Virus record (IMG/VR): IMGVR_UViG_3300034198_017889
Span: 1-64,000 of that record
Origin: a virus
Direction: 5' to 3' (one strand)
Length of the DNA: 64,000 nt
A program made the translations under genes and the position numbers. Of the stretch, positions 3 through 51,500 are shown one piece after another. Position 1 is the stretch's first letter; each line of letters opens with the position of its first letter. The notes below the pieces were generated by a model. That model worked only from the letters and a program-made list of their open reading frames with translations, searched no databases and had not been told where the DNA came from.

Positions 3-80
3 AAAGAAAAGAAGCAAAAAGCAAGAAAAGACAAGCCAAAGGGCTATGAGGCTGTGCATAAGCAAGTTTCTGAGGAATAA
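3..80 (+). CDS. C-terminal tail of an upstream gene (partial)
   Basis: The frame beginning at base 3 is open from the window edge to a TAA at 78-80. It encodes about 25 very basic residues (KEKKQKARKDKPKGYEAV followed by HKQVSEE). Lysine-rich composition and the tight spacing to the next gene support a real C-terminus. The gene order would allow it to be another polymerase piece, such as the missing beta N-terminal half, but nothing in these residues shows that. Confidence 0.5.
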   Translation, partial: KEKKQKARKDKPKGYEAVHKQVSEE

Positions 81-122: not shown

Positions 123-3110
123 ATGAAAGAGTACAAATTCGTGTTGGACCACGGAAAACTCAAAAAAGTCCCTAAGTCAGCCAAAGTAGATTATAAGATT
201 CCGAGCACCACGGACTTCTTCTCTCCTGTTACTAATCTTATTCCCTCCCTGAGTAGTGTATCAGGTGCTCGTGTACTTATCGGAGATAAGAGCTCATTAC
301 AGGCAATGACTCTGGTTAACAGAGAAGCTCCGTTAGTTCAGTCCAGTGAAAGTCAGGATCACTCAAGTTTTATTGAGGAGTACGGTAAGAAGCTTGTTAG
401 TGTTTCTTCCAAGATAGGAGGAGAAGTGACTAAGGTTACTCCTCATGAGATCGTTATTAAAGGCTCAGATGGAAAAGACACCTCTCATCCATTATATCAA
501 AACTATTTAGTAGGTAGGGAGAGCTATATTCATCATACTCCTCTAGTTTCGGTTGGTGACCATGTTAAAAAGGATGAAATGCTGGCTACCTCAAACTACT
601 CAGACAAGCATGGTCACCTTGCACTAGGCATGAACTTGAAAACTGCGGTTATGCCGTATAGATCATATAACTTTGAGGATGCCCTTGTTATTAGCCATGC
701 CGCAGCTCAGAAGTTAGTAGCCGAGCAGCTTATCCCGGTTAGACTAGAAGTTGCCAGAGGACTTGAAACTGGTAAAGATAAGTATATCTCCTTGTTTCCT
801 AACAAGTACTATAACGACCAGCTAGATAAGCTAGACTCTAGTGGAGTCGCCAAGAAAGGTCAGACTTTGAAAATGGGTGACCCTATTATATTAGCTTATC
901 AACCAAAAACGCTAAAGTCTCTTGAGATTCAGTTAGGTAAGTTGTCCAGAGCCCTTAAGAACGCGTATAGCGACGTTACTCATACCTGGGAATACGAGCA
1001 TGACGGCGAGGTTGTGGATGTTAATAACACAGGTAAACTTATCACTGTTACTATCAAAACTAGTCGACCTATGGCGCAGGGAGATAAGCTAAGTAATCCG
1101 TACGGAGCCAAAGGTGTTGTTAGAATTGTGTCAGATAGTGAGATGCCTCAAGGAGAGGATGGTAAACCTATTGATGTTCTACTTAACTCTATGAGTGTTA
1201 CTAGTCGTGTTGCTCCTGGGTTAATTACCACAATGGCCACAGGAAAGGTCGCCCAGAAGTTAGGCAAGATAATCAAAACTACGCCTTTTACTGATGGCTC
1301 TACTGTTGACCAAACTATCAAGCTATTAGCTCATCACGGAATCAAAGATACGGAGAGTCTCTACGACCCCACCTCTGGAAAACATATCGAAGTGTTTACG
1401 GGTCCTTCATACTATACTCGTCTCCACCATATCGCTGAAGACAAGATCTCTGCTCGTAGCGCTGGAACTACATACGATATTAACATGCAGCCCTCTAAGG
1501 CAGGTTCAGTAGAGAAGAGTAAACGCCTTGGAAACTTAGCTACCACTGTTGCACTGTCTAACGATGCTAAAGAAGTTTTGAAAGATGTAGCAGTTATCAG
1601 AAGCACAAAGAACGACGAGTTCTGGAATGCTATCAAGCTAGGGTACACCCCTCCACCACCTAAGGTTCCTTTTATCTTTAATAAGTTCATTTCTCACCTT
1701 GAAGGCTCAGGTGTTCATGTTCGCCAAGAGGGATCAAGATTTAATATCTTACCGCAGACTGACAGAGACATTGAAAAGAACAGCCAGGGAGAAATACATG
1801 AACCACTCACATACAAGCTTAAGGGTGGTGAGTTAGTAGCCGAGAATAATGGGTTATTTGATCCTGTTAACACCGGTATTTATGGTGATAACTACAATCA
1901 TATTGAGCTAGCCGTTAAGATCCCTAACCCAGTTAGTGAGGAACCACTACGTAAGATGATGGGTGTTACCAAAGCTAAGTTTGAGGAGCTCCTTGCTAGT
2001 GGTGAGTTAGAGAAGCAACTAAAGAAAGTCAATCTTGATGATAAGATCACAGAGCTTCGAGGATATATTAAATCTAATAAAAAGACCGGAAGAGACGACG
2101 CAGTTAAAGTCTTATCTTTCTTAACTATGCTAAAGAGAGAGAACTTAAAGCCTGGAGACTTACTCCTTTCTAAGGTTCCTGTTATTCCATCACAATACCG
2201 CCCGATTACAGCACAAGGTAATCAGATTATGAGTGCTGATGTTAACGAGCTCTATAAAGATCTTATGCTTGTTAACAAGTCTTTCAAGGGAATTGATGAA
2301 CATACACCGGTAGAGCTAACTGGTGAAGCTCGTAAAAAGTTATATGAGGGAGTAAAGGCAATCTATGGGTTAGGCGAGCCTATCTCTGTACGAAGCAAAG
2401 AAAAAGGCTTCAAAGGCTTATTAGCCACAACATTAGGAACCCAAGGAGGAAGTGCAAAGTCCTCAATGTTTCAGGCCAAGGTAGTTAATAAACCTATTGA
2501 TCTCGTTGGTCGTGGTGTTCTGGTTCCTGATGGTAACCTACAACTCAACCAGGCAGGCATACCTCAATCAATTCTTTGGAGTGTGTATAATCCATTCATA
2601 ATTCGTAGATTAGTCAGACAGGGTGTTCCTGCTACAAAAGCCAGAGATTACGTTAAAAGTAAGCATCCTTTGGCTGGTCAAGCCTTACAGGAAGAACTCT
2701 TAGACCGCCCAGGTATTATTACTCGTGATCCTCAGTTGTCTAAGTACAACTTCCAAGGATTCTACCTAAAAGCTAACCCGGACCCTAAGGACTTCTCTAT
2801 TAAGTTAAATCCCCTAGTGTTCAAGGGCTATGGTGCTGACTCTGATGGAGACCAGCTAAACGTACAGGTTCCCGCTAGCGACGAAGCTAAGGAAGAAGTC
2901 AAAGACAAGCTCTTTCCAGAGAAGAACTTAATATATCACAGAACATTCTCACCCATTTATACTCCTAGCAATGAGGCAGCTGTTGGCTTGTTCGCGGCTA
3001 GTTATGAAGATAAAAAGAATAAACCAACTCATTATACTAATGCTGACCAAGTTGTTTCTGATTTCTTGGCAGGCAAGCTTGACATAGGCGATAGGATAGA
3101 ATTATCTTAA
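123..3110 (+). CDS. RNA polymerase: beta C-terminal half fused to beta-prime N-terminal half
   Basis: DNA-dependent RNA polymerase core piece of 995 aa. Residues about 50-500 align by eye to the C-terminal half of bacterial beta. They include a YNFEDALVIS block, the GDK...AKG pair (K322 and K330, the same spacing of 8 as the catalytic-site lysines of E. coli beta) and a TRLHHIAEDKISARSAG block. Residues about 600-995 match the N-terminal half of beta-prime. They include an IELAVKIPNPV segment, YRPITAQGN...DVNELYK, and the metal-binding GADSDGDQLNVQVP (NADFDGDQM in bacteria), with Asp 906, 908 and 910. The first beta-prime zinc finger appears absent. The Phe of the motif is Ser here. Beta and beta-prime are split in phiKZ-type phages and fused end to end in Helicobacter. 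A fusion of one half of each is unusual. The rest of beta-prime is at 4291-6153. No SD is evident. Confidence 0.92.
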   Translation: MKEYKFVLDHGKLKKVPKSAKVDYKIPSTTDFFSPVTNLIPSLSSVSGARVLIGDKSSLQAMTLVNREAPLVQSSESQDHSSFIEEYGKKLVSVSSKIGGEVTKVTPHEIVIKGSDGKDTSHPLYQNYLVGRESYIHHTPLVSVGDHVKKDEMLATSNYSDKHGHLALGMNLKTAVMPYRSYNFEDALVISHAAAQKLVAEQLIPVRLEVARGLETGKDKYISLFPNKYYNDQLDKLDSSGVAKKGQTLKMGDPIILAYQPKTLKSLEIQLGKLSRALKNAYSDVTHTWEYEHDGEVVDVNNTGKLITVTIKTSRPMAQGDKLSNPYGAKGVVRIVSDSEMPQGEDGKPIDVLLNSMSVTSRVAPGLITTMATGKVAQKLGKIIKTTPFTDGSTVDQTIKLLAHHGIKDTESLYDPTSGKHIEVFTGPSYYTRLHHIAEDKISARSAGTTYDINMQPSKAGSVEKSKRLGNLATTVALSNDAKEVLKDVAVIRSTKNDEFWNAIKLGYTPPPPKVPFIFNKFISHLEGSGVHVRQEGSRFNILPQTDRDIEKNSQGEIHEPLTYKLKGGELVAENNGLFDPVNTGIYGDNYNHIELAVKIPNPVSEEPLRKMMGVTKAKFEELLASGELEKQLKKVNLDDKITELRGYIKSNKKTGRDDAVKVLSFLTMLKRENLKPGDLLLSKVPVIPSQYRPITAQGNQIMSADVNELYKDLMLVNKSFKGIDEHTPVELTGEARKKLYEGVKAIYGLGEPISVRSKEKGFKGLLATTLGTQGGSAKSSMFQAKVVNKPIDLVGRGVLVPDGNLQLNQAGIPQSILWSVYNPFIIRRLVRQGVPATKARDYVKSKHPLAGQALQEELLDRPGIITRDPQLSKYNFQGFYLKANPDPKDFSIKLNPLVFKGYGADSDGDQLNVQVPASDEAKEEVKDKLFPEKNLIYHRTFSPIYTPSNEAAVGLFAASYEDKKNKPTHYTNADQVVSDFLAGKLDIGDRIELS

Positions 3111-3129
3111 AGCTTTATTAAACACTAAG

Positions 3130-3135
3130 TATAAC
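3130..3135 (+). promoter_or_regulatory. Possible -10 box (TATAAC)
   Basis: TATAAC lies 5 nt before the ATG at 3141, in the 30-nt gap after the polymerase fusion gene. It matches the recurring -10-just-before-ATG pattern of this window. There is no clear -35. Confidence 0.25.
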
Positions 3136-3140
3136 ATACA

Positions 3141-3341
3141 ATGATTGATGAAGAAATCTGGTCCAAGCTTTCTGCTGAAGAAAAACTGGCTGAACTCGAA
3201 AAGTACCTAAATGAGTTTAGACGGCTTGATTCGGGTGAGCACGAACTCAGAGGAACTTACCATGAAGGTAAAATAAAAACTTTAAAAACAGAGCTTAAGC
3301 AGAAAATAAACAAAATAATAGACTTGGAGTACATCAAATGA
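3141..3341 (+). CDS. Small charged helical protein, function unknown
   Basis: 66 aa, rich in Lys and Glu, predicted mostly helical with a heptad-like pattern (LSAEEKLAELEKYLNEF). I do not recognise it. Its TGA overlaps the ATG of the next gene by 4 nt (ATGA), so the two are probably translationally coupled. It lies between the two RNA polymerase genes, so a role with the polymerase or in the virion is possible but not shown. Confidence 0.7.
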   Translation: MIDEEIWSKLSAEEKLAELEKYLNEFRRLDSGEHELRGTYHEGKIKTLKTELKQKINKIIDLEYIK

Positions 3342-3958
3342 ATATCAGCAACCTAATCGAATCATATGATGCCTTGGTGAAGAAGGCATTCATACCCAAT
3401 CCCCAAGCTCAGCAAGAGCAGGGTCAACTTCAGCAGGCTCAGCAGCAGCTTATGCAGATTGTTCAGCAGCTTCCTCCTGAAGCCCAACAACAAGTTGGAC
3501 CTATGATTCAACAGCTACAACAGCTTCCACCTGAGCAGCAGCTCCAGCAGATCGGTCAGCTTACCCAGCAATTATCTCAAGGTGGACAACAACAACAAGA
3601 TCCATCCGCTCAAGGGGGTCAACCTCAGGATCCATCAGCACAGCGGCAGGATCAATCAGCACCAGCACAAGAGCAGGGAAACCTCAACGCCGAGAATAGC
3701 CTAGACAACACAAAGGTCACTCTCTCAGTACGTGAGCTTCTTGATCTCTCTAATGGTGGTAAAGCTACTCAGAGCTTGCTCAAGGTCAAGCAAATGGCCG
3801 AGGCCCACAATAAGAAAATGGAAGCAGCTCAGCAACAGCAGGACCAACAAGCAGCTCAACAGCAACAAGCACAACAGCAGCAATCCGCTATGGGTCAGGG
3901 TGGAATTTACTCCGCACCTATGGATGGCTCAGCCCCAATCGGAGCACCAGCCCAATGA
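3338..3958 (+). CDS. Glutamine-rich low-complexity protein
   Basis: 206 aa. Residues 1-20 form a short amphipathic start ending in LVKKAF. This resembles the K-x-A ends found in many head-region proteins here. About residues 22-110 and 155-190 are Gln/Ala/Pro tracts with repeated QQLPPE units. A short ordered part, about 118-150, carries VTLSVRELLDLSNGGKATQSL. Low complexity suggests a flexible virion or scaffold-like protein. It is coupled to both neighbours by 4-nt ATGA overlaps. Function unknown. Confidence 0.75.
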   Translation: MNISNLIESYDALVKKAFIPNPQAQQEQGQLQQAQQQLMQIVQQLPPEAQQQVGPMIQQLQQLPPEQQLQQIGQLTQQLSQGGQQQQDPSAQGGQPQDPSAQRQDQSAPAQEQGNLNAENSLDNTKVTLSVRELLDLSNGGKATQSLLKVKQMAEAHNKKMEAAQQQQDQQAAQQQQAQQQQSAMGQGGIYSAPMDGSAPIGAPAQ

Positions 3959-4287
3959 ACTCATTAGAGAAGATTAGCTCATATTTATCTAGTTTTGGTC
4001 CAGAGGAGCAGAACTACGATTACGTTTGCTATATCAAGACAAAGCTTGCTGATATGCAGGCAACTCAGTCCACAGGTGAAACTAGTAATGAGGATGATCA
4101 GGAAAATACTGATGCCTCAAAAGTAGAAGTAGCCGAGCAAGATAAGTCACAAAAAAATTTAGAGGGTGAGCTGATGGATGGAGCATTTAGAGATCTTGAT
4201 GTTCTGAATGACATTGAAGACGATAAGGTTGTTAAGAAGGCTTCTCCGATTACTGATTTTTTAAGCAAGTTATCTAACAAAAAATAA
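3955..4287 (+). CDS. Small acidic protein, function unknown
   Basis: 110 aa. It opens with an amphipathic helix-like segment (LEKISSYLSSFG), has a strongly acidic centre, and ends in a basic-hydrophobic tail (KKASPITDFLSKLSNKK). The start overlaps the preceding stop by 4 nt. The next gene, beta-prime C-terminal half, follows after 3 nt. No family is recognised. A scaffold-like or polymerase-accessory role is only a guess from position. Confidence 0.7.
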   Translation: MNSLEKISSYLSSFGPEEQNYDYVCYIKTKLADMQATQSTGETSNEDDQENTDASKVEVAEQDKSQKNLEGELMDGAFRDLDVLNDIEDDKVVKKASPITDFLSKLSNKK

Positions 4288-4290
4288 GTT

Positions 4291-6153
4291 ATGTCTGTTA
4301 CCACAGTTGGTCGTATACTTTTGAAGCAGTATACGCCTAAACACCTACACTCGCTAATAGACGACGAAGTTCTCGACAAGAAGGGAATTTCAATTTTGTT
4401 TAGTAAGCTTGTTGAACTAGAGCCAGATAATTATAGTAAGATTGCATCTGACTTAACTAGACTTGGATTTGAGATTGCCACGAGACAGGGTACCTCCATC
4501 ACTTTAAAAGATCTAGTTTCTCCTATTAATACTAAGGAGCTTTACGACAAGTTCGATGCCTTCCAGGTTAAGGTAAATAAGACTGATGATTCTCAGAATG
4601 TAAAAAATCAGAGAATCTTTGATAAATATAACACCATGATGGAGGATGTGAATAAGCACATTCTAGACGACGGACTTAAAACTAATAAGTCTCTTGCTAA
4701 GATCATACTTGCAGGCTCTAGAGGATCCCCAGCTCAGTACCGATCTACTATTGCTACTCAGGGTATTGTGGTGGATGCTGATGGTTTACCTAAGATGGAT
4801 ATTCCTGTTAAAAGCTCATTTGCTGAGGGACTTACTCTTCCTGAATACTTAGTAACATCTTTTGGTACGCGCTCAGGCGAAGTAGTTAAAAAGGTTGGTG
4901 TGGCACAAGGTGGATACTCTAGTAAGCAGTTCTCTAGAGCTTTGATGAATCTACAAATAACAGAGCATGACTGTGGAACTGCTAATGGAATATCTGTATC
5001 AACCACAGATAAGGATTCTGTCGGCGCTTATCTCGCTACTGCCATAGGAGGATATAAACGGAATAACGAGATCACTGCAAAAATGTTAAATGACCTGAAA
5101 GGTCAGAACATTGATAAAATCTTAATTCGTTCACCCATGACTTGCAGGGCCAGCAATAATAACCACTTTGGAGCGGTGTGTCAGTTATGCGTAGGTAAGC
5201 GCGAAAAGGGATTACCTGCCCCAGATAGTTATATTGGACTTGTTGCTGCTACTGCTGTTAGTGAACCTCTCACTGAGTATGCCATGAAATTAAGACATGG
5301 TGGAGGAGCAGCTACTAGCCTAGGTGGAGCAAGTGGTTTCAAGATGATTAACCAGCTTGCTAACATCCCTAAAACTTTCTTAAATAAAGCTCCTCTAGCT
5401 AAAGAGGATGGATATGTAACCCGTATCGCTCATGCAGCAGCAGGTGGTTACTTTATTGATGCAGGTACAGAAGAATATTATATTGGAGTTGGACAAGAAC
5501 CCAAAGTGAAGGTTGGTGACCATGTAGAGCAGGGAGATGTATTAAGCTCCGGCCTTGTTGATCCTAGTGAGGTTGTGCAATACAAAGGAATCGGAGAGGG
5601 GCGTAAATATTATGCACAAGCCATGAAGAGAGCCTTTGATGAGGGAAATCTTGGGGTTAACAGAAGAAACTTCGAACTGATCGCTAGATCTGCTATCGAC
5701 CATGTAAAAATTAATGATAACGATGGATTAGGTAATTTCTTACCTGACCAGATTGTTTCATACTCGGCACTAGAGAAGAGTTATGTTCCTAGAACAAACA
5801 GCAAAGATATTAGATCCGATTTGGCCTATGGAAAATATCTAGAGGCCCCCATACTACATTACACCATAGGTACCAGGGTCACTTCCTCTGTGATAGAGGC
5901 TCTTAAGGAGCAAGGAATTGAGTCTGTGCATGTTAACGACGACCCTCCACATTTCGAGCCTCACATGGTTCGACTTCTTGACGTTCCAGAGCATACAGAT
6001 GATTTCATGCATGTACTTTACAGTACCAACCTTGCAAAACGCTTTAGCAACGCCGTGAATGAGGGGGCGTCTTCTGATATTAATGGCCCTAGTCCTATAC
6101 CTGGATTAGCTTATGGTGTGGGGTTTGGAGAACACAGTAACTGGAAAGAGTAG
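4291..6153 (+). CDS. RNA polymerase beta-prime subunit, C-terminal half
   Basis: 620 aa completing the polymerase active site. The bridge-helix region (LAGSRGSPAQYRSTIATQG) and the trigger-loop region (FAEGLTLPEYLVTSFGTRSG) align with bacterial beta-prime. Four zinc-ligand cysteines of the second beta-prime zinc site are kept: C228 (DCGT), C285, C297 and C300. They are followed by the VAATAVSEPLTEYAMKLRHGGG block, the equivalent of the bacterial IAAQSIGEP segment. The fragment begins after the catalytic Asp domain, which is in the fusion protein at 123-3110, so beta-prime is cut between those two modules. No SD is seen. Interspersion with virion-type genes suggests, but does not prove, a virion-packaged polymerase as in phiKZ-like phages. 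Confidence 0.92.
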   Translation: MSVTTVGRILLKQYTPKHLHSLIDDEVLDKKGISILFSKLVELEPDNYSKIASDLTRLGFEIATRQGTSITLKDLVSPINTKELYDKFDAFQVKVNKTDDSQNVKNQRIFDKYNTMMEDVNKHILDDGLKTNKSLAKIILAGSRGSPAQYRSTIATQGIVVDADGLPKMDIPVKSSFAEGLTLPEYLVTSFGTRSGEVVKKVGVAQGGYSSKQFSRALMNLQITEHDCGTANGISVSTTDKDSVGAYLATAIGGYKRNNEITAKMLNDLKGQNIDKILIRSPMTCRASNNNHFGAVCQLCVGKREKGLPAPDSYIGLVAATAVSEPLTEYAMKLRHGGGAATSLGGASGFKMINQLANIPKTFLNKAPLAKEDGYVTRIAHAAAGGYFIDAGTEEYYIGVGQEPKVKVGDHVEQGDVLSSGLVDPSEVVQYKGIGEGRKYYAQAMKRAFDEGNLGVNRRNFELIARSAIDHVKINDNDGLGNFLPDQIVSYSALEKSYVPRTNSKDIRSDLAYGKYLEAPILHYTIGTRVTSSVIEALKEQGIESVHVNDDPPHFEPHMVRLLDVPEHTDDFMHVLYSTNLAKRFSNAVNEGASSDINGPSPIPGLAYGVGFGEHSNWKE

Positions 6154-6231: not shown

Positions 6232-8487
6232 ATGGCAAATTCCTCTAAGACAAAACTAGCCGCAGACGACTCTCTTGAACAGGCGTTCTTCCAACTAGCC
6301 TACAATAAGTTACAGGATAGTTTAAAAAACTTACTTCCTTTCTTGATTGGTTTTGAGATTGTTAAGAAGAACGAGGATAACACCAAGGCTCTTGGAGTCT
6401 TTGGATTTCGTTCACAGTCCGGACAGATTCTATATGTTCCCGCCTTCTTCATTGAGGGTAAGGTAAAGAACCTAGACCTCCTTTACTCTAAGAACAACGA
6501 GCAGTTCTATCCTCTGGATGAGGATTTTGCAGAGATGTTCCTCAAGGACGATATGACCGGCATTGGCGCGGTTGGTGGTGAACCCCGTCACAAGGTTCTT
6601 CAAGACATGACCCAAGGTGATTATCGCCAAATGACCATTCCTCCTCGTACCGGAAAGTACTCTATTGCCTCTGTTATTGATTACGTTAAAGATTCTGATA
6701 ACAAGACCAAGCAAGCTTTCACTAACCTCCTTGAAAAGGACGCTGAGTTCTGCGAGGCTGTTTTACGTTTTTACCCTATTGAGAAAGTTGCTGCTGCTGT
6801 TGTAAAAACAGAGGACGGTACAAAATACCGCAAGGGAAATGATGTTAAAGTTGTTATGAAGGACCAGAAAGCTGATGTTCTTAAGCTCTCCGATAAGGAG
6901 CGTGAAGATGTAATGACTCAAGGATTTGTTGTAGTAGATAAAAGAACAGCTGATAAGAAATCTAAATTTGGGGTAGTAGACTACGTTAAAAAGTTTCATA
7001 ATCCCACAGAATCGGGATTCTATCCTTACGTTACTCGTGTAGGAACTATCAACTATGGTCTTATCTTGGTTCGTCCTAAACAACTACAGCAAAATTTTTC
7101 AACTGACGATGCTATTGTTATCAACCTTGACGCTGATGTAAAAGGAACAGCTTATGTGGAGGATACCCACATGGTTTTCTCTAAAGACCAAATCAAAGTT
7201 GACGATTATTCGTTAGTTCATAAGATGATGGTAGATCCAGCCGAGGCTAAGCCCAGCTACACCTCGACTTACGTGCTTATCAACGAACACTTAAAGTCAA
7301 CCCAACCATTTAAAATCAATGCTAATTTTAAAGATGCTCAAGGGATTAGAAGAATTAGTGTTGAGCCATATTCCCTGTATAGAGATGCCGAGTCGGATTA
7401 CGCTTATCAAGATCATAACCGTGGCCGTGCTGACCGCCCAGGGAGTGTGCATGACTTACCTAGGGGTAATTTTTATAGCCATCCGAAGAAAGCTAAAGAA
7501 ATATTATTGGTTATGACCAAGAAGCCTGGTGACGATTTAGATTATCAGAACTGCACAGTTTACGTCCCCTCAGGCTACAAACTTCTAGAGGTTAAGTTTG
7601 ACGCATTAAACTGTTTTGATTGCAGTACAGATGCTCCGACTGATACTGATAAAGGAGCAACTACCGCAGCCACAGCTAAAGAAAAGTATTTACAGAATCG
7701 CCCAGGTGGAACCCATGCTCTTCATGCATTCTTGTCTAAGAACAACATTGTTCCTATGACTGTACGCACCAACGGGAGCGAGTACTTCAGCAACATTGCT
7801 GGAGTTAAGAAGAAGTATGAGAATCCGATGAAGGCCAAGATTGCTATGACAACTGAGGTTGGTCTTGATTTCAAGCAGGCTTGCGAAATTATTGATGGTC
7901 TTGTGGTTGATAAAACCCTAGAGGGACACGTTAAGCTGGCCTACACTGGTGATAACTATCCAATTCCTTATGACGAAGCTCCATATACCAATCAAATTGG
8001 TCAACCAACCTATACTGGTGTGGGTCAAGAGAGCCGCCTCCCTGGAGATAACACATACACAGGAGATCCCACAGCTCTAGGTTTAGGTACAATGCCTGAG
8101 ATTGAGGGAATTGGTCAAGGTGGGCAAGCTCACGAGATTGATCCTAGATATGTTAATCAAGCTACTCAGATGGCCCAGAATGGACAGAAGGAGATCTTTG
8201 ATGTTCAGACAATGGCAACACTTGCGAAGTATGTAGGAGTATCTGACAAGATCACTGAGTACGTTCCATCTCTTATCGAGGGAATGGATCGCTTAGGTAG
8301 AATTCTTTTCTTACTCAACTGGGACACTGATAAGTTTGTTCAGCTGTACGGCAGAAATGACCTTCCTGAGCTGGTAGAGCTCGTCACTAACGTATTCAAA
8401 AACCTAGGCGACTTAGTCATTTTCTTAAAGCGTAAATCTCCAGAACTCACGATTAACATGAGTAAAGATGAAGCGCTCGATGTCTAA
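6232..8487 (+). CDS. Large virion-like protein, function unknown
   Basis: 751 aa, mixed alpha/beta composition, no membrane segments. The N-terminal part (about 1-300) is regular globular sequence with a hydrophobic LLPFLIGFEIV core. A Gly/Pro/Thr-rich linker lies at about residues 580-640 (repeated YTG and GQ motifs). The helical C-terminus (KYVGVSDKITEYVPSLIEGM) ends in an acidic tail. I do not recognise a family. Size and position upstream of the head cluster fit a structural or ejected protein. The start is chosen at MANSSKTKL, the first ATG of the frame, with no SD. Confidence 0.75.
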   Translation: MANSSKTKLAADDSLEQAFFQLAYNKLQDSLKNLLPFLIGFEIVKKNEDNTKALGVFGFRSQSGQILYVPAFFIEGKVKNLDLLYSKNNEQFYPLDEDFAEMFLKDDMTGIGAVGGEPRHKVLQDMTQGDYRQMTIPPRTGKYSIASVIDYVKDSDNKTKQAFTNLLEKDAEFCEAVLRFYPIEKVAAAVVKTEDGTKYRKGNDVKVVMKDQKADVLKLSDKEREDVMTQGFVVVDKRTADKKSKFGVVDYVKKFHNPTESGFYPYVTRVGTINYGLILVRPKQLQQNFSTDDAIVINLDADVKGTAYVEDTHMVFSKDQIKVDDYSLVHKMMVDPAEAKPSYTSTYVLINEHLKSTQPFKINANFKDAQGIRRISVEPYSLYRDAESDYAYQDHNRGRADRPGSVHDLPRGNFYSHPKKAKEILLVMTKKPGDDLDYQNCTVYVPSGYKLLEVKFDALNCFDCSTDAPTDTDKGATTAATAKEKYLQNRPGGTHALHAFLSKNNIVPMTVRTNGSEYFSNIAGVKKKYENPMKAKIAMTTEVGLDFKQACEIIDGLVVDKTLEGHVKLAYTGDNYPIPYDEAPYTNQIGQPTYTGVGQESRLPGDNTYTGDPTALGLGTMPEIEGIGQGGQAHEIDPRYVNQATQMAQNGQKEIFDVQTMATLAKYVGVSDKITEYVPSLIEGMDRLGRILFLLNWDTDKFVQLYGRNDLPELVELVTNVFKNLGDLVIFLKRKSPELTINMSKDEALDV

Positions 8488-13303: not shown

Positions 13304-14548
13304 ATGCCAAACGAACCTATCTCATTTCAACAAGAAATCGACACACCAGGGGCAGGAACTGATTCTGAACTGTATAGGGCGGTATCTCCGTTGCTTGATT
13401 TAAACCGTATTCCAGAGTCTAAAAATAATTTTGATAGAGCCCGCATTGATAAGCTCAAGGAAGATTTACGTAAAGGTACGCTTGGATTAGAATATCTCAC
13501 AGGCCTAAAGAGCAACAAAGCTGAGACTTTTTACGATAACCACAAAGCTCAGGCTGTTACATCAGATGTATTAGCTAACTCGGGTGGAATAGGTTTAGGT
13601 GTTGGCGCAGGCAGCGCAGCTTTAAACTTCGCTCGTCAACGCGCAAACCTTCTTAAGACTGTACCTAAACATGACGCAAGACGAGGAGACGCAGTTCAAC
13701 GGATGGAGACAAAGCTGTCACCTATAGATCCTAAAGACGGAAGAGCTTTACCTGTTACAGATAACGATGCTTTGCGTATGTTTGGAGATACTTCACCAGG
13801 TACGACGGCAGCTCCAGCAAGTATTGATAATGTTATTAAGAGGGTTGAAAGCCTTGATGATATTGCTGCTGTTAAGGGAGATAAAGGTCCAAAGCCTTAT
13901 AAAGCGCAGCTTGAAAAAATTATAGGAGACGGAAAAGCATTAACGCCAGAACAGATCAAAGAGCTTACACCATTTTTAAGTAGCCTGCGAGGCACATCTG
14001 AGCACGGAACTTTAGGCCAATACGCGGAGCTTCATAAAGATCTTTTAGCTCATGGTAATAGCTTTAAAGCCCCGATGGGTGCCTCTTTAGGTGATAAATT
14101 TTATTCGAGTAGCTTAGGAGATAAGATGCAGCATTTACCTCAGGCTGTTCAAAACATAATTCATTCTCTTGTTCCACACAGCTTTAAGGGTCACGAAGAT
14201 TTAATTAATAAACATATTACTTCACATAATCCCAACGGTGTGAGTCCAGCACTATTGAGAAAAGTTCTAACCGACACAGGCTTAGACGAGGAGCAAATTA
14301 AGGTTGTTGAAAATGGTTTACTTTCCCGGCTTAAAAATCCAGCTAGTAGAAAATCTTATAGTAAGATACTCGAACATGTTGGGCGTCCTGCTCTTATTGG
14401 TGGGGGAATCGCCGCAGGTGGATTAGGTTTAAGCCATGTACTAAAAGCCCTGCAGGGTCAGGTATATGGTAAAGAAAAGATTAATGATTGGAAGCGTAAT
14501 ACTCTTCGCTCACGTGGTGAGTTTGAGGAGGCAAACAGAATTCAATAA
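13304..14548 (+). CDS. Head-cluster protein of unknown function
   Basis: 414 aa. Mostly helical and charged, with two Gly/Ala-rich hydrophobic stretches: about residue 92-106 (GGIGLGVGAGSAAL) and about 365-385 (ALIGGGIAAGGLGLSHVL). It lies just before the prohead protease and overlaps its ATG by 1 nt (TAATG), implying coupled translation. No family is recognised. Co-translation with the protease suggests a capsid-assembly or internal protein. Confidence 0.7.
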   Translation: MPNEPISFQQEIDTPGAGTDSELYRAVSPLLDLNRIPESKNNFDRARIDKLKEDLRKGTLGLEYLTGLKSNKAETFYDNHKAQAVTSDVLANSGGIGLGVGAGSAALNFARQRANLLKTVPKHDARRGDAVQRMETKLSPIDPKDGRALPVTDNDALRMFGDTSPGTTAAPASIDNVIKRVESLDDIAAVKGDKGPKPYKAQLEKIIGDGKALTPEQIKELTPFLSSLRGTSEHGTLGQYAELHKDLLAHGNSFKAPMGASLGDKFYSSSLGDKMQHLPQAVQNIIHSLVPHSFKGHEDLINKHITSHNPNGVSPALLRKVLTDTGLDEEQIKVVENGLLSRLKNPASRKSYSKILEHVGRPALIGGGIAAGGLGLSHVLKALQGQVYGKEKINDWKRNTLRSRGEFEEANRIQ

Positions 14549-15978
14549 TGATTAAATTCAACTCCACTAGCGATTGGAACTTTGATGTTCCTCCTGTTAA
14601 CATTGTAAACGAGGGAGCAGACTTGAAGAAACTAGCTGCTGTACATGATGAGCTTAAAGTAGAGAAGACTGCTAATCAAACTGACGTTCACGTTATTGCT
14701 TTAGGCTCATACGAGGGAATTGGTCAAAACAGAAACGGCGATCTATTCAAAGAAGCTGAATGCTTAGAACACTATAAGACCTTCATTCGCTCTGGTAAAA
14801 AAGGTAAGGATGGAAAATATGATGGAAGAGCCTTAAACCGCCACCACAAGAATAAACCAGAAGACCCTAAGTACGGCAATATCAAAGCCGCTGCTTATAA
14901 TCCTGATATGAAGCGCATAGAGCTGATCGTTGGATTAGACAATGATAAATGTGCTGAGGAAATTCAAAAGCTTTCCAAGGGCGATCAAATCAATGTATCA
15001 ATGGCTGCCAAGGTAGCTAGTGACGTTTGCACCTGGTGTGGTCATAACGCCAAGGATGATAGAGGGCGTTGCGAGCATGTGCCTAACCAGATCGGTGAAT
15101 TAAATAAGCGTGGTGAAATGTGCGGAATGGATAACATTGATCCTCACTGGTTTGAGCTATCAATTGTTGGTAGACCTGCTGATCGTATTGGTATGTCTCT
15201 CAAGCTTGCCTCAACCTATGCCCCGCAATTAACATCTGACTATCTTAAGATCTATTCTGACTTTAATGCTCCTTGTGATGTTCAAGACTTCCTTATTTCT
15301 AAGAAAGCTAGCGACAAGAGAAGCTTAGTAAGTAAGTTAGCTGAGATGGAAAAGCACCTTGAAGGAATAGCCACAAAGGGACCTAAAGATTCTAGCGAGA
15401 AGTATATTTCTAACGAGGCATCTAAAATCAATCATTCAGAGGGATTATCTGAGGAGACAATTGATGAGCTTAGAAAGCAGGACCCCAGCAAGCTATTAAA
15501 AGCATTAGCAGATAAGGGAATTGTTTTTTCTCCAGCTGACTTTGTTAAATATCTGTTTGGCGATAAGCTAGCAGATAATAAGATTATTGATAAGATGAAG
15601 AAACGTCTACCTTCAGGTTTCTCCCATATGGAAGAGGATGAAGACAAGGAAAACTCAGCTGTGAACAGTGAGCGTTTTGACCCTCAAGATTTAGGAATGC
15701 TGCCTCGTGAAATTAAATCGCTTGTCAGTGGGTTGTTTGATGGGCATTCTTTATTTGATCACCCTGCCCATGGAAGAGTAATGCGTATTACTATCATCAA
15801 GAATATTCCTGGTGGTTTAAAAGCAACTCCCCATAAGGAAGAGATCGAAAAAGATGCAGCTGCAGACGAACTAGCTGAGCAATACTTAAGCTATAAGTTA
15901 GCTGCATTACGATATATGGATGAGTGTGGAAAGTTAGATAATCAAACTATCTTGAACGCATTGATACAGAATCGTTAA
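14548..15978 (+). CDS. Putative prohead maturation protease (S78-like) with Cys-rich insertion
   Basis: 476 aa. The first 220 residues follow the layout of phage prohead proteases. There is a His-containing strand (RALNRHH, H99/H100), then a GDQINVSMAAKV strand with Ser151 as candidate nucleophile, then a WFELSIVGRPAD block equivalent to the family's L-x-EVSLV-x-x-PA segment. Between the last two lies a zinc-finger-like insertion with C161, C164, C175, H177 and C192. The enzyme would cleave scaffold and capsid precursors inside the prohead. The gene stands directly before scaffold-like and capsid genes, as expected. The C-terminal half is unrecognised and may be a targeting or self-cleaved region. 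The catalytic assignment is by pattern, not alignment. Confidence 0.7.
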   Translation: MIKFNSTSDWNFDVPPVNIVNEGADLKKLAAVHDELKVEKTANQTDVHVIALGSYEGIGQNRNGDLFKEAECLEHYKTFIRSGKKGKDGKYDGRALNRHHKNKPEDPKYGNIKAAAYNPDMKRIELIVGLDNDKCAEEIQKLSKGDQINVSMAAKVASDVCTWCGHNAKDDRGRCEHVPNQIGELNKRGEMCGMDNIDPHWFELSIVGRPADRIGMSLKLASTYAPQLTSDYLKIYSDFNAPCDVQDFLISKKASDKRSLVSKLAEMEKHLEGIATKGPKDSSEKYISNEASKINHSEGLSEETIDELRKQDPSKLLKALADKGIVFSPADFVKYLFGDKLADNKIIDKMKKRLPSGFSHMEEDEDKENSAVNSERFDPQDLGMLPREIKSLVSGLFDGHSLFDHPAHGRVMRITIIKNIPGGLKATPHKEEIEKDAAADELAEQYLSYKLAALRYMDECGKLDNQTILNALIQNR

Positions 15979-18503: not shown

Positions 18504-18511
18504 GAATAGTA

Positions 18512-18540
18512 TTGACGTAACCTCAAATATTTGGAATAAT
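18512..18540 (+). promoter_or_regulatory. Promoter for decoration-capsid operon (TTGACG-17-AATAAT)
   Basis: TTGACG (18512-18517) and AATAAT (18535-18540) are 17 bp apart, a good sigma-70-type promoter. Transcription near 18547 gives a leader of about 105 nt, unusually long for this window. The leader contains a possible small hairpin around TCCCTTGATCGGGA. No known riboswitch is recognised. Confidence 0.5.
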
Positions 18541-18653
18541 TTTAGATATAACTTTAGCAATGCAGCTTGCGCTCCCTTGATCGGGACCGGTGTGAGAAAG
18601 CATAAGTGAAAAATCTATTCAGTAAAAACAACAAAATAAAAGGAAAAAAAAAT

Positions 18654-19148: not shown

Positions 19149-20105
19149 ATGGAAAAAATCGCCGACGTAAAAGTATTCAACGACACATTCGTTGAGATGG
19201 TAAAGGCCGGTCAGGAAAAGCAAGCCGCTGTTTCTGCCCAGCAATTCACCCGCAATAAGCTTCGTGAAGAGAGCTTTGCTGAGAAGATCATCACCCCTAT
19301 CGACATCAGCAATGATGAGCTTGATAAGGCTGAGAATCCTGAGCTGCTCGTTAAGTGGAATGATCGTGAGCCTGACACAGCTCCTGCTAGCACAATCCCT
19401 CTGGGTGTTGTGCCTGAGGCGCTTCAGTTCTCTGGAACACGCTATCCTTCGTACTTCTCACGCATCACTTCTCCTAAGTATAACAAGGACATTGATCATC
19501 TTCGTACATACGACTATGACATCCGTGCAATCATGCTTGAGCTCAGCACCAAAGACATCGCCACAGAGATCGACTCACGTTTCATCTCCACGGTTGATTC
19601 AGTTCTTGGCACAGCTAACACAGCTAACGCCCTTAACGGTTTAGGTCTTCCTCAGAATGTTACCATCTCCGGTGGTATCACTCGTGAGACAGTTGCTGAA
19701 GCCTTCAAGGTTATCAAGCGTCTCCAGGTACCTTTTGGTCCTTCACAGCCAGATGGCGGTGAGTCCAAGGGTGTCATGTTGATGAACACCGTAACCGCTG
19801 ACGACTTCGTTAAGATGTCCCGCTCAGAGGTTGGTGGTGATCTTGCTCAGGATATGTTTGTAAATGGTCTCCCTTCCAAGACTCTTCTTGGTGTGAAGCC
19901 CATCTACACAATCAAGCGTGATCTCGTTCCTGATGGTACTATCTACCTCTTCTCTTCTGAGGAGTTCTTCGGTAAGTACTACAGGCTCCAGCCTCTCACA
20001 GTGTTCATGAAGAACGAAGCTTACTTCCTTGAGTACTTCCAATATCTGAACATCTCACTCTCTATCGGTAACGTTAAGGGTGCTGTTAAGGTACAGTTCA
20101 GCTGA
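19149..20105 (+). CDS. Major capsid protein (HK97 fold)
   Basis: 318 aa. It has the layout of HK97-fold capsid proteins: a charged helical N-terminal arm, an alpha-beta centre (YDYDIRAIMLELSTKDIATE), a peripheral part with GLGLPQNVTISGGITRE, and a C-terminal DGTIYLFSSEEFFGKYYRLQ followed by beta strands. The N-terminus contains a KQAAVSAQQ stretch like the K-x-A motifs elsewhere, so limited cleavage by the protease at 14548 is possible. Clear SD (AGGAG, 19133-19137). A strong terminator follows at once, which suits a very highly expressed gene. Confidence 0.8.
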   Translation: MEKIADVKVFNDTFVEMVKAGQEKQAAVSAQQFTRNKLREESFAEKIITPIDISNDELDKAENPELLVKWNDREPDTAPASTIPLGVVPEALQFSGTRYPSYFSRITSPKYNKDIDHLRTYDYDIRAIMLELSTKDIATEIDSRFISTVDSVLGTANTANALNGLGLPQNVTISGGITRETVAEAFKVIKRLQVPFGPSQPDGGESKGVMLMNTVTADDFVKMSRSEVGGDLAQDMFVNGLPSKTLLGVKPIYTIKRDLVPDGTIYLFSSEEFFGKYYRLQPLTVFMKNEAYFLEYFQYLNISLSIGNVKGAVKVQFS

Positions 20106-22607: not shown

Positions 22608-22623
22608 TAGGGGAAATAAAATC

Positions 22624-22652
22624 TTGCAAACCAAGAAATACTGATTTAAACT
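22624..22652 (+). promoter_or_regulatory. Candidate promoter before the sheath gene (TTGCAA-17-TAAACT)
   Basis: TTGCAA (22624-22629) and TAAACT (22647-22652) are 17 bp apart. A TTGCAA -35 also precedes the gene at 26807. An SD AGGAG (22668-22672) lies in the short leader. Confidence 0.4.
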
Positions 22653-22682
22653 AATAAACAACAATCTAGGAGACAAAAAAAT

Positions 22683-36987: not shown

Positions 36988-37620
36988 ATGAATAACTCAA
37001 TAAATAAACTATTAGATGAGCATAAAAAACTCATAGAGTCTGAGGCTAAGAAATATAGTACGAATATTCCTCTCATAACTGCACAGATTGAGGCATACAA
37101 ATTAGCCAGGCAGGCTGCTGAATCATATTCACCATCTGTTGGTAAATTCAGCACCCACCTAGTAAATAACCTTAAGAAGCTTTCAAGACTATCAACCCAG
37201 TATGGCAGCTCAATACGTCTCCCAGAGAACACACAGTTTGGGATAAATAAGATAAACCAAGTAGAGAAGCAATTAGAAAGTGAGTTTGGCAGGTCTCCCA
37301 CAACGGCAGAGATAGCCGACTATGCGGGGATGAATATAAAGATGGTGGACAGTCTACTTAAAAACAAAAGGTCTATTATTTCTTTTACGAATATGCTGGA
37401 AACCCCCACCATCATGGACAGCTCTAATGATGAGTGGGCTACTTTTGTTTATCATGACCTAGCGCCTAGAGATAAATTAATTTTTGAACACATGACTGGA
37501 TTTGGTGGTAAAAAAATAATCGAGTCTGACAAGATAGCTAAGAAATTAAAAATCACTCAACCTCAGATAAACCAAAGAATTAAAATCATTGGAGACATGC
37601 TCAACAAGGGCTGGAAATAA
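36988..37620 (+). CDS. Sigma-70-family-like transcription factor
   Basis: 210 aa. The whole protein reads as a short sigma factor. Region 2-like residues about 35-75 contain YKLARQAAESYSPSVGKFST and a following helix. Region 3-like residues 77-135 contain IRLPENTQFGINKI and the typical EFGRSPTTAEIADYAGMNIK. Region 4-like residues 155-205 contain LAPRDKLIF and an HTH KIAKKLKITQPQINQRIKI. It should confer promoter specificity on an RNA polymerase, either the host's or the phage's own enzyme encoded at 123-6153. It lies among baseplate genes, 1 nt after the hub gene with a good SD (GGAGG, 36975-36979), so it is made late. Confidence 0.8.
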   Translation: MNNSINKLLDEHKKLIESEAKKYSTNIPLITAQIEAYKLARQAAESYSPSVGKFSTHLVNNLKKLSRLSTQYGSSIRLPENTQFGINKINQVEKQLESEFGRSPTTAEIADYAGMNIKMVDSLLKNKRSIISFTNMLETPTIMDSSNDEWATFVYHDLAPRDKLIFEHMTGFGGKKIIESDKIAKKLKITQPQINQRIKIIGDMLNKGWK

Positions 37621-45588: not shown

Positions 45589-48500
45589 ATGCCTGCACTA
45601 GAGTATCTAAGTGGAAACAGTTTAATCTCTTACCCGTTCAAAGATGGGAGAGCCGTTAATTCTTATCTACCTTTAGGAGATGATACATTTCTCGACGCTC
45701 TTTTCGTGATTAGTGGTGAAGTCGGAATTTCACGACCATATATAAGCCACATCTCAACAGCTCAGAGTGTTATAACCTTCGAGCTTAGTGACGTTGTTGG
45801 TGGTTTATTCGGTGTAGTTGAACTTCCAACTAGCTCAGCAGTAAACCACCTTGATAGTGTGGGGGATAATTTTTTCCATGTAACCAACTCCACTTGGTCG
45901 GCTAAGTTTGTATTTGGTCCGGGAATTTTTGAACTACATACTCCAGGTATAAACATACAATTCACCCCGGACGAGACTGAGTTCTCGCCGTCTGTAGTAA
46001 TTCACACTGTACCTATGGTGACTGCTCTTAATTTTGAATCATACCATAATGACGGTACACTCGCAGCACAAACACCCGAGGCTGTTCATATATACTCACC
46101 CGGTGAAGAGGCCAAGATGACCAACGGGTCTAATAATGTTTTTAATTTCTTGTCTCCTGAGACTATGTATCTAGATATACAGCGAGGAGCAGGAACAGGA
46201 TTACATGACCCATGCGCCTCTGGAAATATCACCGATATTTACAGTATTAATAGAATCACTCCGGACAGCCAGGGTAGTATGTTTTTCTCTGCATCTGATT
46301 GCTACTCTATGGAGCTTCTTACGTATAATGACACTCAACTATACAGCTTCATACCAGATATCGCTAGCCGATATGGAGACTTTGCAACACCTATACCCCA
46401 GATAGGAAATACCCCTGGATATACCCAGTATTTTAATGCTATTGCTCCTGAGATGGGTGGTCACGGCCTTGTGATGCAGAACCACTGCCAACCAAAATGT
46501 CCCCCGCAAAATTTAAACGCTTTTGCTGAATATCTTAACCGAGTTACTGATGGAGCAGCTGAATTATATAAGTTTGTAAGTAATTCATATGAAACATATG
46601 GAACAGGTACGTTATCAGGTGATATTTTCACGGTAGAAGTATTCTGCGGTACAACTCTTCCAGATAACTGGGTTTCAGGTGTATGTAGTGGATCTTTTAC
46701 AAAATACTTCCACGAGGGCAAAACACTGCAAATTAGATATGACTCAACCACAATAAAGTCATACAAAATTTTGGATGTTCTTAGTAATAGTGCTGTAAGA
46801 CTAAATCTTGAAGCTACAAACCCACCCACCATTAATGTTTCCGGACCAGCACCATTTAAAATCTTAGAGCTTGGTATAAAAAATAAGCTAAATTCGGCCA
46901 TTCTTACTAACAATGAAAAGCTTCTTACAAAAAATGTACCATCTATAGATATTAACTACGGAACAGTTGAGGCATACAACGCAGTTAAGGATTACGGAAC
47001 ATTCATAACGGCTATTGTTGTTATTTATAACCCCACCCCAGCACCACTTAACTTTTCAGTGAGCTGGGACACAAACAATATTACGAAAGTCGTGCCTAGC
47101 TCAATAAAAACTAAAACCAGTTCTGGTGTGATTAGTTATGGTGGCACCGTAGGAATTATAAATTGCAAAGACTACGCAACTTTTGAGGCAATCTTCTTCA
47201 TACCATGCTCAACTTCCGAAAATAGTCCTAACGAGGGAAGCGTAACTTTCAATGTACTGAATACCGCCGATAATCTAGACCTGGAGAATTCACCCAAATC
47301 AGTAATGGCAACCGCCGCGACATGCGTATCTGCGGACCAAGCTATAATTTATGTAAAAGCTTTAGAGGGTGCACCTTTCTCATATTATCTACCAGTTGGT
47401 CCTGGTGTTACTTCCTTATCGTTTTCGGGAAATGCGCCCAATTGGCTAACCTTTGATAACTCAATCACACCAGGAGCAGGCAATCTACACGGAACTCCCA
47501 CAGGAAGCGTAAGTGGGTCATACACGATAAGCGCAGGAATAAACTCAGCTGGTGGATCAACAGCACAAACCATTGTGCTTACGTACGTGGCTAAACCTAG
47601 GATTGTGTACCCTGAGGATTCTTCTACCATACAGATCTACCCACCAGACACAAATAGCAGAACATACACAGAGGGAGCCCCACTCACACCTATAGTGGCC
47701 ACAAATTCACCGAGCGGTTACTCTATAGTGGGTGCGCCTCTAGGGCTAAGACAAGTAGGAAATGGGCTTATCGGTCAGATAACCCTAGGATCAAATCCCA
47801 CCTTCCCAATTAACTATGTGCTCACCATGTCTGCCTCTAACGAGGCCGGTGAATCTCTACCGGTTACGGTTAATCTGGAATTAACCAATGTACCTATATC
47901 CACACCTGCGGCCACATATGGAACACAATTTTGCTATTCTATTATATCCGGGCCAGAGGTGTTATCTCAGTCTGTTATCACGTCACTACCTAATTGGCTA
48001 TCATTTAATCCGGCCGTAAACCTAGTCTCAAGTACCACTCCCCCAGTATGTTCCCTATCCGGGATGAATACATCATACTCAGGAAAACCAGAGATAGTTA
48101 TAGTTAGACAAAATCTTAAAGGTGGAAGCTACAGATTAGTACAATATATAATTCCATACTCATCAATTCCCAACATAACATACCCAACACCAGGGGCAAT
48201 ATTCAACGTATACCCACCTAACTTTGTTAATAGTGGCGACGGCGCTACCGTGTTCACCGCAGCATACCCGCTATTAAAGGTATACTCCACGAACACCACA
48301 ACGTCATTTAACGCCACCGGATTACCCTTAGGGCTATCTATAGATAACTCTGGTAATATAGTTGGAAAAATTACCTCAGGAGCGGGAATATACAGCACCA
48401 CAATTACCGCCACAAATTCAGTTGGCACATCTCCTCCGGTTACTTTTAGTTTTGATCTTTTAGACCAAGTACCCACTATTAACGCATATCAAGGAAAAGC

Positions 48501-51500
48501 TTTCTGTTATAAATTTCCTATACTTAATAACGCCAGCTCCTTCTCTATCTCTGGGGATATTCCACCATGGCTGACTGTTTCATCAAGTGTTAACACATCA
48601 TGCCATATCAGCTCGGCTAAATTGAGTCAACCGCAAAGTCAGAGTTACAATTTGCTAGTTAGTGCCGACATCAACAAAGCAAACATATCTCAAGCGCAGA
48701 TCATTAATTATGTAGCTCTCCCGAAAATTTCTTATCCTACCTCAGGCCAAGTTATAAACCTAACAGCTGCAGATTACCAAAATATATTATTCACTACCGA
48801 TTTCCCACTGGCAACAATCATAGCTTCTAACTCCCCAACCTCTTACTCCGCCTCCGGCTTACCTACCGGACTATCAATTACGCCGAATGGGAAAATCATA
48901 GGAAAAACATCAGCAACAGCTGGTGATTATGATGTTGTATTAACTGCCACCAATGGTGCAGGCAGCGAATCCATTTCTGTAACTTTTCATATATCCAGTT
49001 CCGGAATTAGGGATTTAGCTTTCCCGAATATGCCTTACTGCTACAAGATCGCGGGATTTGGGGCGGTAGATCGTTACGAATATTCAGGAACCCTACCAGA
49101 CTGGTTAACTTTTGATGGAAGCCCTACCGCACTGTGTAATTTATATGGAACAGGCACAGGTACCACCGGCGAGGTTTATGATTTAACGCTAACGGGCTAC
49201 AATGGAACCAGCTCTACATCCCTGCCGTACACATTGAGTTATGCTATTACTCCCACCATAACATATCCCATTGCTGGGTCCATATTCACAATTACTCCAC
49301 CAGACTACAACAGTAAGGTGTTCACATTGAATTCACCCCTCTTCAAGGTTACGGCGACTAATAACCCAACCACATTTAGAGCCACAGGTTTCCCATCTAA
49401 TACATTCAGTATAGATCCAGCCACAGGGTCTATTATAGGTTCCACCAGAACCGTGACCACCAACACACCAACACCCATAACAATAACCGCAGTCAATGCC
49501 GCTGGAACATCTGAGTCTATCACAGTTTATTTGGTTGTGAGTTCCACAAGTCAAACACTAGGCATAGACGGATCAACAGGTGAAGTTTGTTCATTATTAA
49601 GTTTAGCTGATAATCCAACCGGACTAACTTTGACAGGCTTACCGTCTTGGCTTACGTTCAGCTACCCCGCCGTTAATAATTGCAACATTTCTGGAACCAT
49701 TCCCACCGGTCAGGTATCAACACAATCATTTACTGCACAGTTAACGAGAATTTATGGAACTGGATCTACCGTCCAGAATTTATTAATTAGTATTACACGA
49801 CCACCTGTAATTACTTCTCCAGATCAAAACATCTACGATATAGCTCCGCCTGATTTTAATAGCAGAATATACACCACGCTATTACCACTATTAACAGTTC
49901 AAGCCACTAACAACCCGACGAGCTTTAGCGCCACAGGGCTTCCTCCGGGATTAACTATAAATTCTTCAGGTAGAGTAATTGGTGGACCCGTTACAGTGGT
50001 AGGTGATTATGCTGTGAGTATAACAGCCACAAATTCGGTAGGCTCATCATCAACAGCCCTATGCACAATATCAGTTACTAACAGCATAAAAAACATCACG
50101 GTGGCAAGAGAAACAGCGATATGTGAAAAGATCATTACCGCCGACGGTGCCACGGTTTACTCCACTGTCGGTAAGTTACCATCAGGAATATCCTTTAATG
50201 GCTCTCCAAATATTAACTGCAATTTTTCGGGGACTCCATTGGTAAGTAACCCTGTGGGTGTGTACCCGATTAATATAACTAGTAAATATCTTGGAGGATC
50301 TAGCACCAGCACTACGAATTTAAACCTAATAGCTGTACCTAAGATAACTTACCCGATCAGCTCAGCCATATTTAAAATATACCCACCAGACTTCACCGCT
50401 GTATCTGGGGATTCAACAACATTCACTGCGGGATACCCACTACTTACTGTACTAGCCACGAACTCACCCATTTCCTTCTCAGCTACTGGATTACCATCAG
50501 GATTAACCATAGATAACTCCGGAAATATAGTTGGAAAAATTACCTCAGGGGTTGGAACATTCAATGTTTCAGTTATTGCAACAAACTCAGTAGGTACATC
50601 TTCAGCATTATCATTTAGTTTATCTCTAGTCAACACAGTTCCAATTATCAGCGCATACCAGGGTAAGGATCTCTGCTATAAGTTTCCAATTCTAAGTAAT
50701 GCTACCGCGTATTCATTATCTGGTGATGTTCCACCCTGGGTTACGGTTAATACATCCGCCAGTGCAGCCTGCCACATTAGTGCAACAAATCCATCTTTAA
50801 ACGCTAGCACCACTTATGAGCTTGTATTGAGCACTGTGATTGGTGGCGCAAATATCAAGCAAAGCCAAGTTATTAAATACACTGCATCGCCGAAGATAAG
50901 CTCACCACAGGCTAATTTGGTAGTTAGCGTATCTGACTTAATAACTTTCACAGAAAACTATCCAGCTGTGGCTGTTTTTGCATCTAACTCCCCAACTTTA
51001 TACTCCTGCACCCCAGGATTACCAGCAGGATTAAGTATCACAAAAACAGGCAAAGTTATAGGTAAAGTGGGTGCGACGGCAGGTAATCATAATGTAGCAA
51101 TATCAGCTACTAATGCAGCCGGTAGTGACTCTGTTGTTGTAACTTTTAATGTTGTGCGAAGTTCAAATAACACGCTGTCTTCAGCTGCTATATTTGGAGA
51201 ATCTTATTGTTTCAAGATTCAAGGTATGGGGACCGCAACTAGCTACGGGTACTCAGGAACACTACCAGAGTGGTTAACATTTAATAGTGATGTTGGTGCA
51301 ACCTGTAATTTATATGGAACAGCAACAGGGCTAACTAATGAAATCTATAATATAACATTAATAGGCTACTATGGAGATTCATCGGTATCCTATAACTTCA
51401 GTTTGCAGTATTCAGCCAAGCCAACTATAACTTATCCAATTGCTGGATCTGTATTTACAATTACTCCCCCAGACTACAAAAGCAAGACATTCACGCTAAC

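Follow-up and report, generated by a model that had tools for sequence, protein, structure and literature searches.

What kind of RNA polymerase is encoded at the left end of the IMG/VR virus record IMGVR_UViG_3300034198_017889, where a single frame runs from the C-terminal half of β into the N-terminal half of β′, and how did the enzyme come to be cut and joined in this way? The window, meaning the whole stretch of DNA analysed here, covers bases 1 to 64,000 of this virus contig, which is 103,844 bases long. Its capsid, terminase, baseplate-region, sigma, and polymerase genes are homologous to those of the lineage of Salmonella phage Arash and Vibrio phage D69; the virus is probably a myovirus-like phage of this lineage, with a full genome of 165-205 kilobases (kb), 103.8 kb of which are in the contig. 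Our answer, to which we assign a probability of about 0.82, is a bacterial-type polymerase with β tethered to β′, made of four pieces, built into the virion with a sigma-like protein, active in early transcription, and derived from a single-chain enzyme. Three features of the window bear on it directly:

123..3110, plus strand: βC::β′N fusion (C-half of β joined to N-half of β′), 995 amino acids (aa); open reading frame (ORF), Pfam, family profile, alignment, AlphaFold
4291..6153, plus strand: β′ C-half (β′C), 620 aa, with bridge helix, trigger loop (H336), and zinc site C228/C285/C297/C300, running to the β′ C-terminus; ORF, Pfam, alignment
36988..37620, plus strand: sigma-70-like protein, 210 aa, homologue of the Arash virion protein gp10; Pfam, PHROG, blastp, phmmer

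The 995-aa frame is intact by ORF check and, as an earlier note had read from its letters, has β before β′. It comprises a β C-half (residues ~1-536, with K322, K330, and the β C-terminus), a linker (~537-553), and a β′ N-half that ends just past the metal motif GADSDGD (D906, D908, and D910). Pfam matches RNA_pol_Rpb2_6 (5e-57, residues 97-459), Rpb1_2 (9e-14, residues 856-927), and Rpb1_1 (1e-7, which falls under Pfam’s own cut-off). Compared with solved structures, the family profile matches the C-terminal half of bacterial β over positions 1-527 (E-value 7e-85) and bacterial β′ over positions about 637-1008 (E-value 4e-73), so the protein is neither β alone nor β′ alone. The two lysines and three aspartates are invariant across a 31-row alignment, and the β lysine pair and β′ DxDGD triad lie in homologous barrels, as in bacterial-type two-barrel enzymes. 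The original observation of a β/β′ fusion is confirmed. By alignment to the β and β′ termini, the link from the β C-terminus to the β′ N-terminus is under about 20 residues long. The first zinc ribbon of bacterial β′ (Zn1) is, by eye, apparently absent, a short cysteine-free segment, GLFDPVNTGIYGDNYNHIELA, standing at window ~1755-1920 (residues 545-600). An AlphaFold model built on the 31-row alignment had a mean predicted local distance difference test score (pLDDT) of 85.6 and a predicted template modelling score (pTM) of 0.74, superseding a poor 17-row run (pLDDT 62, pTM 0.37). Its best PDB matches were bacterial β chains, with E-values down to 5e-39, and in a library of viral predicted structures nothing resembled the fusion closely over its full length (best query TM-score 0.37).

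The 620-aa frame, also intact, supplies the rest of the subunit. Pfam matches Rpb1_5, the family aligns with the remainder of bacterial β′ in solved structures, and the bridge-helix motif, the trigger-loop histidine, and the four-cysteine zinc site are conserved, with SSFAEGLT...DCGT present; the placement of bridge helix and trigger loop in a second gene is thus borne out. Serine in place of the bacterial phenylalanine in the metal motif, likewise pointed out at the start, is a property of the whole clade. The x of DxDGD is S, C, N, or T in 15/15 readable members of the window clade and F or Y in all other sequences (the remaining S/C/N rows in the DxDGD listing duplicate contigs already counted). 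The small residue is therefore fixed in the clade and is not an error. The residue between the first two aspartates has been described as bulky in multisubunit polymerases (PMC7598289); the window clade departs from the bacterial type in this respect, with its aspartate triad intact.

How far the fusion extends among relatives was read from an IMG/VR survey queried with the fusion, with β′C, and with a single-chain form, and then from profile dissection of the records. The β/β′ boundary was visible in 63 distinct records and in record L153, and the junction was fused in all 64 and separate in none, while other cuts varied. In the sister group, comprising Arash and the Vibrio phages D69, D148, and D181, a whole β::β′N of ~1525 aa is accompanied by a separate β′C; the junction lies inside one ~1525-aa frame that also holds the β N-half in Arash and D69, and D181 and D148 match likewise. 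This layout occurs in 26 records with the whole frame. β::β′N is cut again near β′N position 83 in L030, L114, L116, L147, and others. Deep relatives encode a whole β::β′ in a single frame, the Helicobacter-type arrangement that the window lacks (L135 3544-9855, 2103 aa; L151 8992-15183, 2063 aa; L152 1514-8002, 2162 aa), and L141 is of the same form, but interrupted within βC. Clearly non-fused phage polymerases (L032, Cobetia phage Carin-5, and Rhizobium phage TM39) are distant from the fused lineage. That of L032 (9470-15216) is a distinct enzyme in its own right, with β′ (901 aa) encoded before β (1009 aa) in separate genes and very short subunits. Searching plasmids with the DNA of the Arash fusion gave no match; with the β′C protein, no place reached >80% query coverage, and the matches resembled ordinary rpoC.

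In the window clade β itself is in pieces. The earlier note suggested checking the gene just upstream of the fusion; that this gene is the β N-half was rejected, as gene order in relatives places two β N genes ~7-16 kb upstream, one of them on the opposite strand. In close relatives the N-half is formed by βN1 (217-221 aa), on the opposite strand ~7-9 kb upstream of the fusion gene, and βN2 (230 aa), which shares the strand of the fusion and lies ~11-16 kb upstream. Of the 9 closest relative records, 8 have both as stand-alone genes and the other stops short of them at its contig end; βN2 also stands alone in six more records of the clade. The window-clade enzyme therefore has four polypeptides, about 2060 residues in total, and its catalytic core would be assembled from βN1, βN2, βC::β′N, and β′C; in the window virus βN1 and βN2, neither of which is present on the contig, presumably lie beyond its left end, as close relatives indicate. 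The β′N/β′C cut is close to the cyanobacterial γ/β′ cut: residue 23 of β′C pairs with cyanobacterial β′ (RpoC2) at its residue 3 or 10, and the end of the fusion with residues 553-556 of the 624/625-aa cyanobacterial γ chain. phiKZ-like phages cut β′ at this site too (PMC7598289). The proposal that both cut points are shifted and the halves fused across the boundary stands for the fusion, which is conserved, but the β′ cut is not new.

Which came first, the single chain or the pieces? In a rooted tree of 24 rows with three bacterial outgroups, L141 and then L135/L151/L152 branch outside all β′-split members (support for the split group 100/98), and two quick trees, one of them wider, agree that the single-chain forms lie outside the β′-split group. 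Some database hits labelled as phage, Acinetobacter phage MD-2021a among them, are stretches of bacterial chromosome with rpoB/rpoC; MD-2021a served solely as a bacterial outgroup. Since the single-chain forms branch outside, a single-chain β::β′ ancestor with later cutting seems the better reading of these trees, with the caveat of a long outgroup branch. The later cuts would then most likely lie in β′, beyond the metal-binding barrel, with two more in the β of the window clade.

Mobile inserts offer a plausible cause of the cuts. In L153 (12016-13263) an intein follows β′N position 84, the place at which the L030/L114 sister group is cut, and L099 (5941-7659) carries one at the β′ metal motif, coincident with a frame break; two inserts, in L022 and L099, are located at this motif. 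In L025 (9050-9331), a D69-like phage, a group I intron lies between the β N-part and βC::β′N frames, and its “split” is therefore probably spliced out in practice. Intein or intron decay is thus a plausible source of the cuts, supported and not proven. Intein or homing-endonuclease inserts in phage polymerase genes were also seen in L022 (from ~12700), L129 (5696-8752), L097 (3562-4494), and L095 (9989-12295). A different insert, an inorganic pyrophosphatase domain (InPase, Pfam), occurs in the β part of three records at a single site, ~βC position 115, giving a polymerase with a built-in pyrophosphatase:

L104 5274-6146: InPase insert, E-value 3e-31
L105 4766-5524: InPase insert, E-value 3e-6
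L111 4925-5407: InPase insert, E-value 2e-36

That the polymerase is carried in the particle is suggested by Arash. The Arash paper names Gp206 “β” and Gp216 “β′”, and the passages of it considered here make no mention of a fusion (PMC10585845). By its virion mass spectrometry, Gp206 gave 128 unique peptides and 3516 spectra, with 100% coverage of 1525 aa, Gp216 gave 40 and 1210, and the sigma-annotated Gp010 gave 24 and 467 (PMC10585845). Per 100 aa, we compute from these tables 8.4 unique peptides for Gp206, 6.6 for Gp216, and 10.3 for Gp010, while the capsid protein reaches 9.8 and DNA primase 0.2; among the Arash counts compared, Gp206 tops both unique peptides and spectra, above the capsid protein (PMC10585845). 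The 210-aa protein of the window matches Arash gp10 by blastp and phmmer, and a sigma homologue was found in 17/18 lineage records. Region 3 is clear (Sigma70_r3, 7.5e-12), and phrog_351, a sigma factor family, matches nearly the full length (residues 4-201), which places the protein in the sigma-70 family; Pfam did not find region 2 in the window protein and detects it weakly in Arash gp10. No second polymerase was found in the lineage genomes, with one β match in 15/15 records, several of them incomplete. Because the Arash homologues are in the virion, the sigma homologue is shared, and each genome has a single polymerase, the window virus most likely packages its polymerase with its own sigma-like factor, as homology and gene neighbourhood suggest. 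Packaging, raised at first as a possibility, has become likely with the Arash homologues being major virion components (PMC10585845).

On this reading the enzyme and the small sigma-like protein would be built into the virion, as mass spectrometry found for Arash, and the polymerase would be injected with the DNA and read the first phage genes, with the sigma-like protein selecting the promoters. A search for α in 13 records gave nothing above cut-off (one sub-threshold match, E-value 0.04), and a search for ω in 13 records gave none. The covalent β/β′ tether may thus take their place, probably substituting for the α dimer and ω by holding both catalytic barrels together.

Several points weigh against this account. 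A look for promoters between genes turned up nothing but ordinary-looking, sigma-70-like -35/-10 sequences, suggestive of host-type promoters and seen by eye in gaps 5′ of genes (window 18504-18605 and 22608-22682; contig 86195-86263; e.g., TTGACG, ~17 bases, TAAT), and because of them the host polymerase may serve those genes. The fork that puts L141 deepest has a support of 89/92, and the root of the tree lies on long branches (0.84 on each side). The Arash authors, moreover, state that enzymes in particles may be carried over from infection (PMC10585845).

This last point leads to the idea that the fused enzyme is a non-virion polymerase for middle or late genes, present in Arash particles by carry-over. 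Many non-structural enzymes do appear in the Arash virion table with few peptides, but just 2 unique peptides each were listed for DNA primase, DNA ligase, and two helicases, while the counts for Gp206 exceed those of the capsid protein (PMC10585845). The single polymerase per genome also speaks against carry-over, as does the position of its genes, which are set among head and tail genes in the window, Arash, and D69. We consider this explanation unlikely. The neighbouring genes of the window are:

3..80, plus strand: Lys-rich C-terminal end of an upstream gene that the contig end truncates; gene order in relatives shows that it is not the β N-half
3338..3958, plus strand: 206 aa, Gln-rich, located between the two polymerase genes; relatives retain it (199-308 aa)
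3955..4287, plus strand: 110-aa gene directly 5′ of β′C, kept in relatives
6232..8487, plus strand: 751-aa homologue of Arash gp218, which is listed as structural by virion mass spectrometry
14548-15978: head-maturation-protease-like gene
19149..20105, plus strand: major capsid protein homologue (Arash gp226)

A domain search on the Gln-rich protein found no domain. The protease-like gene suggests another possibility, that a protease separates the β and β′ parts and leaves the mature enzyme untethered. Phages often process virion proteins, which counts in its favor; against it stand the shortness of the linker and the single-chain relatives, in which the fusion is longer still and separate genes are not restored. 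This we regard as about as improbable as carry-over. An error of assembly or sequencing that merged separate genes, for which one could point to the contig starting right before the fusion gene, is rejected as the origin of the fused frame, since the fused junction recurs in 64 distinct records, including finished isolate genomes, and its Arash counterpart has 100% proteomic coverage in the published table.

The tethered, virion-built polymerase thus remains the preferred explanation. A broader history, with a β/β′ boundary that is never cut in this lineage, single chains of ~2100 aa at its base, split forms derived by repeated cutting, perhaps via intein or intron decay, and a virion-packaged polymerase together with a recognisable sigma-70-type factor, has in our judgement an even chance of being correct as a whole. 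If it is, the split phage polymerases here would be secondary, and not relics of a pre-cellular multi-piece enzyme.

Some further observations concern the surroundings of these genes. L018 (13014-14459) has an extra 481-aa frame directly 3′ of the fusion gene, absent from the window and possibly a mobile endonuclease. The window encodes a 3882-aa tail-type protein at 45589-57237, with a weak match to the tail protein family phrog_8763. A Pistol ribozyme (62682-62749; 61.3 bits, E-value 1e-8) lies ~400 bases 5′ of a phage transfer-messenger RNA (tmRNA) gene (63136-63570; Rfam 86 bits, ARAGORN), which has an unusually long predicted tag, ANSNEMLAPSLAEADAILNQFGYADRELLAA.

For Arash, packaging is already in the literature. 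Neither the fusion nor the lineage as such, and neither the four-piece nor the single-chain forms, appear to have been described in open-licence PMC papers, among which no other account was found of a recognisable sigma-70-type factor packaged in the virion with a multisubunit-type polymerase. The polymerases of D69, D148, D181, and Arash are annotated merely as “subunit beta” or hypothetical. The lineage adds a family of minimal bacterial-type polymerases (~2060 residues, no clear α or ω) in which cut sites vary and β is always tethered to β′. It makes testable the purpose of the α/ω platform, and whether split viral polymerases, which have been argued to be primitive (PMC7824862), are primitive or derived. 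With an isolated Salmonella phage as source, the packaged polymerase and sigma also offer a practical route to a purified multisubunit virion polymerase; as of 2020, none was said to have been obtained pure from a jumbo phage (PMC7598289).

Among known systems, the polymerases of Arash (Gp206, Gp216, and Gp10) and of D69, D148, and D181 are closest, with homology over 94-100% of both window proteins at 26-32% identity. They share with the window the β/β′ fusion, the separate β′C, and the sigma homologue, virion location being reported for Arash. In contrast, they keep β whole in the ~1525-aa fusion, where the window clade has it cut into three, and have DYDGD for DSDGD. The rpoB-rpoC fusion of Helicobacter and Wolbachia is the sole cellular polymerase, ~2890 aa, uncut and with α and ω. 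It has a covalent β::β′ junction as here; the phage single-chain forms are 2063-2162 aa. In the crAss-like, YonO, and P23-45 enzymes both catalytic barrels are in one chain, and in crAss-like phages and P23-45 it is a virion enzyme; divergence hides the β/β′ nature of the crAss-like and YonO enzymes at the sequence level, whereas the fused lineage keeps the entire recognisable domain order. The mReC phages are tailed, have a bacterial-like multisubunit polymerase, and are also found in IMG/VR, but their β and β′ are described as distinct subunits (PMC7481178). A yeast cytoplasmic virus-like element (K2ORF6p and K2ORF7p) has the Arash-type topology, with β fused to part of β′ and the β′ C-part separate; its authors call this fusion unique and argue for a viral origin (PMC6211774). 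They liken its β′ division to that of some archaea, in contrast to the cyanobacterial-like cut and bacterial-type sequence of the phage enzymes. Finally, the phiKZ/AR9 enzymes resemble that of the window in having bacterial-type β/β′ pieces without α or ω, a β′ cut after the metal barrel, and a virion enzyme for early genes (PMC7598289, PMC7824862). Their β and β′ pieces are unjoined, with two paralogous enzymes per phage and no sigma recognisable by sequence, whereas the window has a fused junction, one enzyme, and a sigma-70-like protein. In its action the window enzyme would thus resemble the phiKZ-type virion RNA polymerases, but it does not belong to that group, and the earlier note’s view that its combination differs from both the phiKZ-type splits and the Helicobacter whole fusion is supported, with whole-β and whole-enzyme fusions now found in its relatives.
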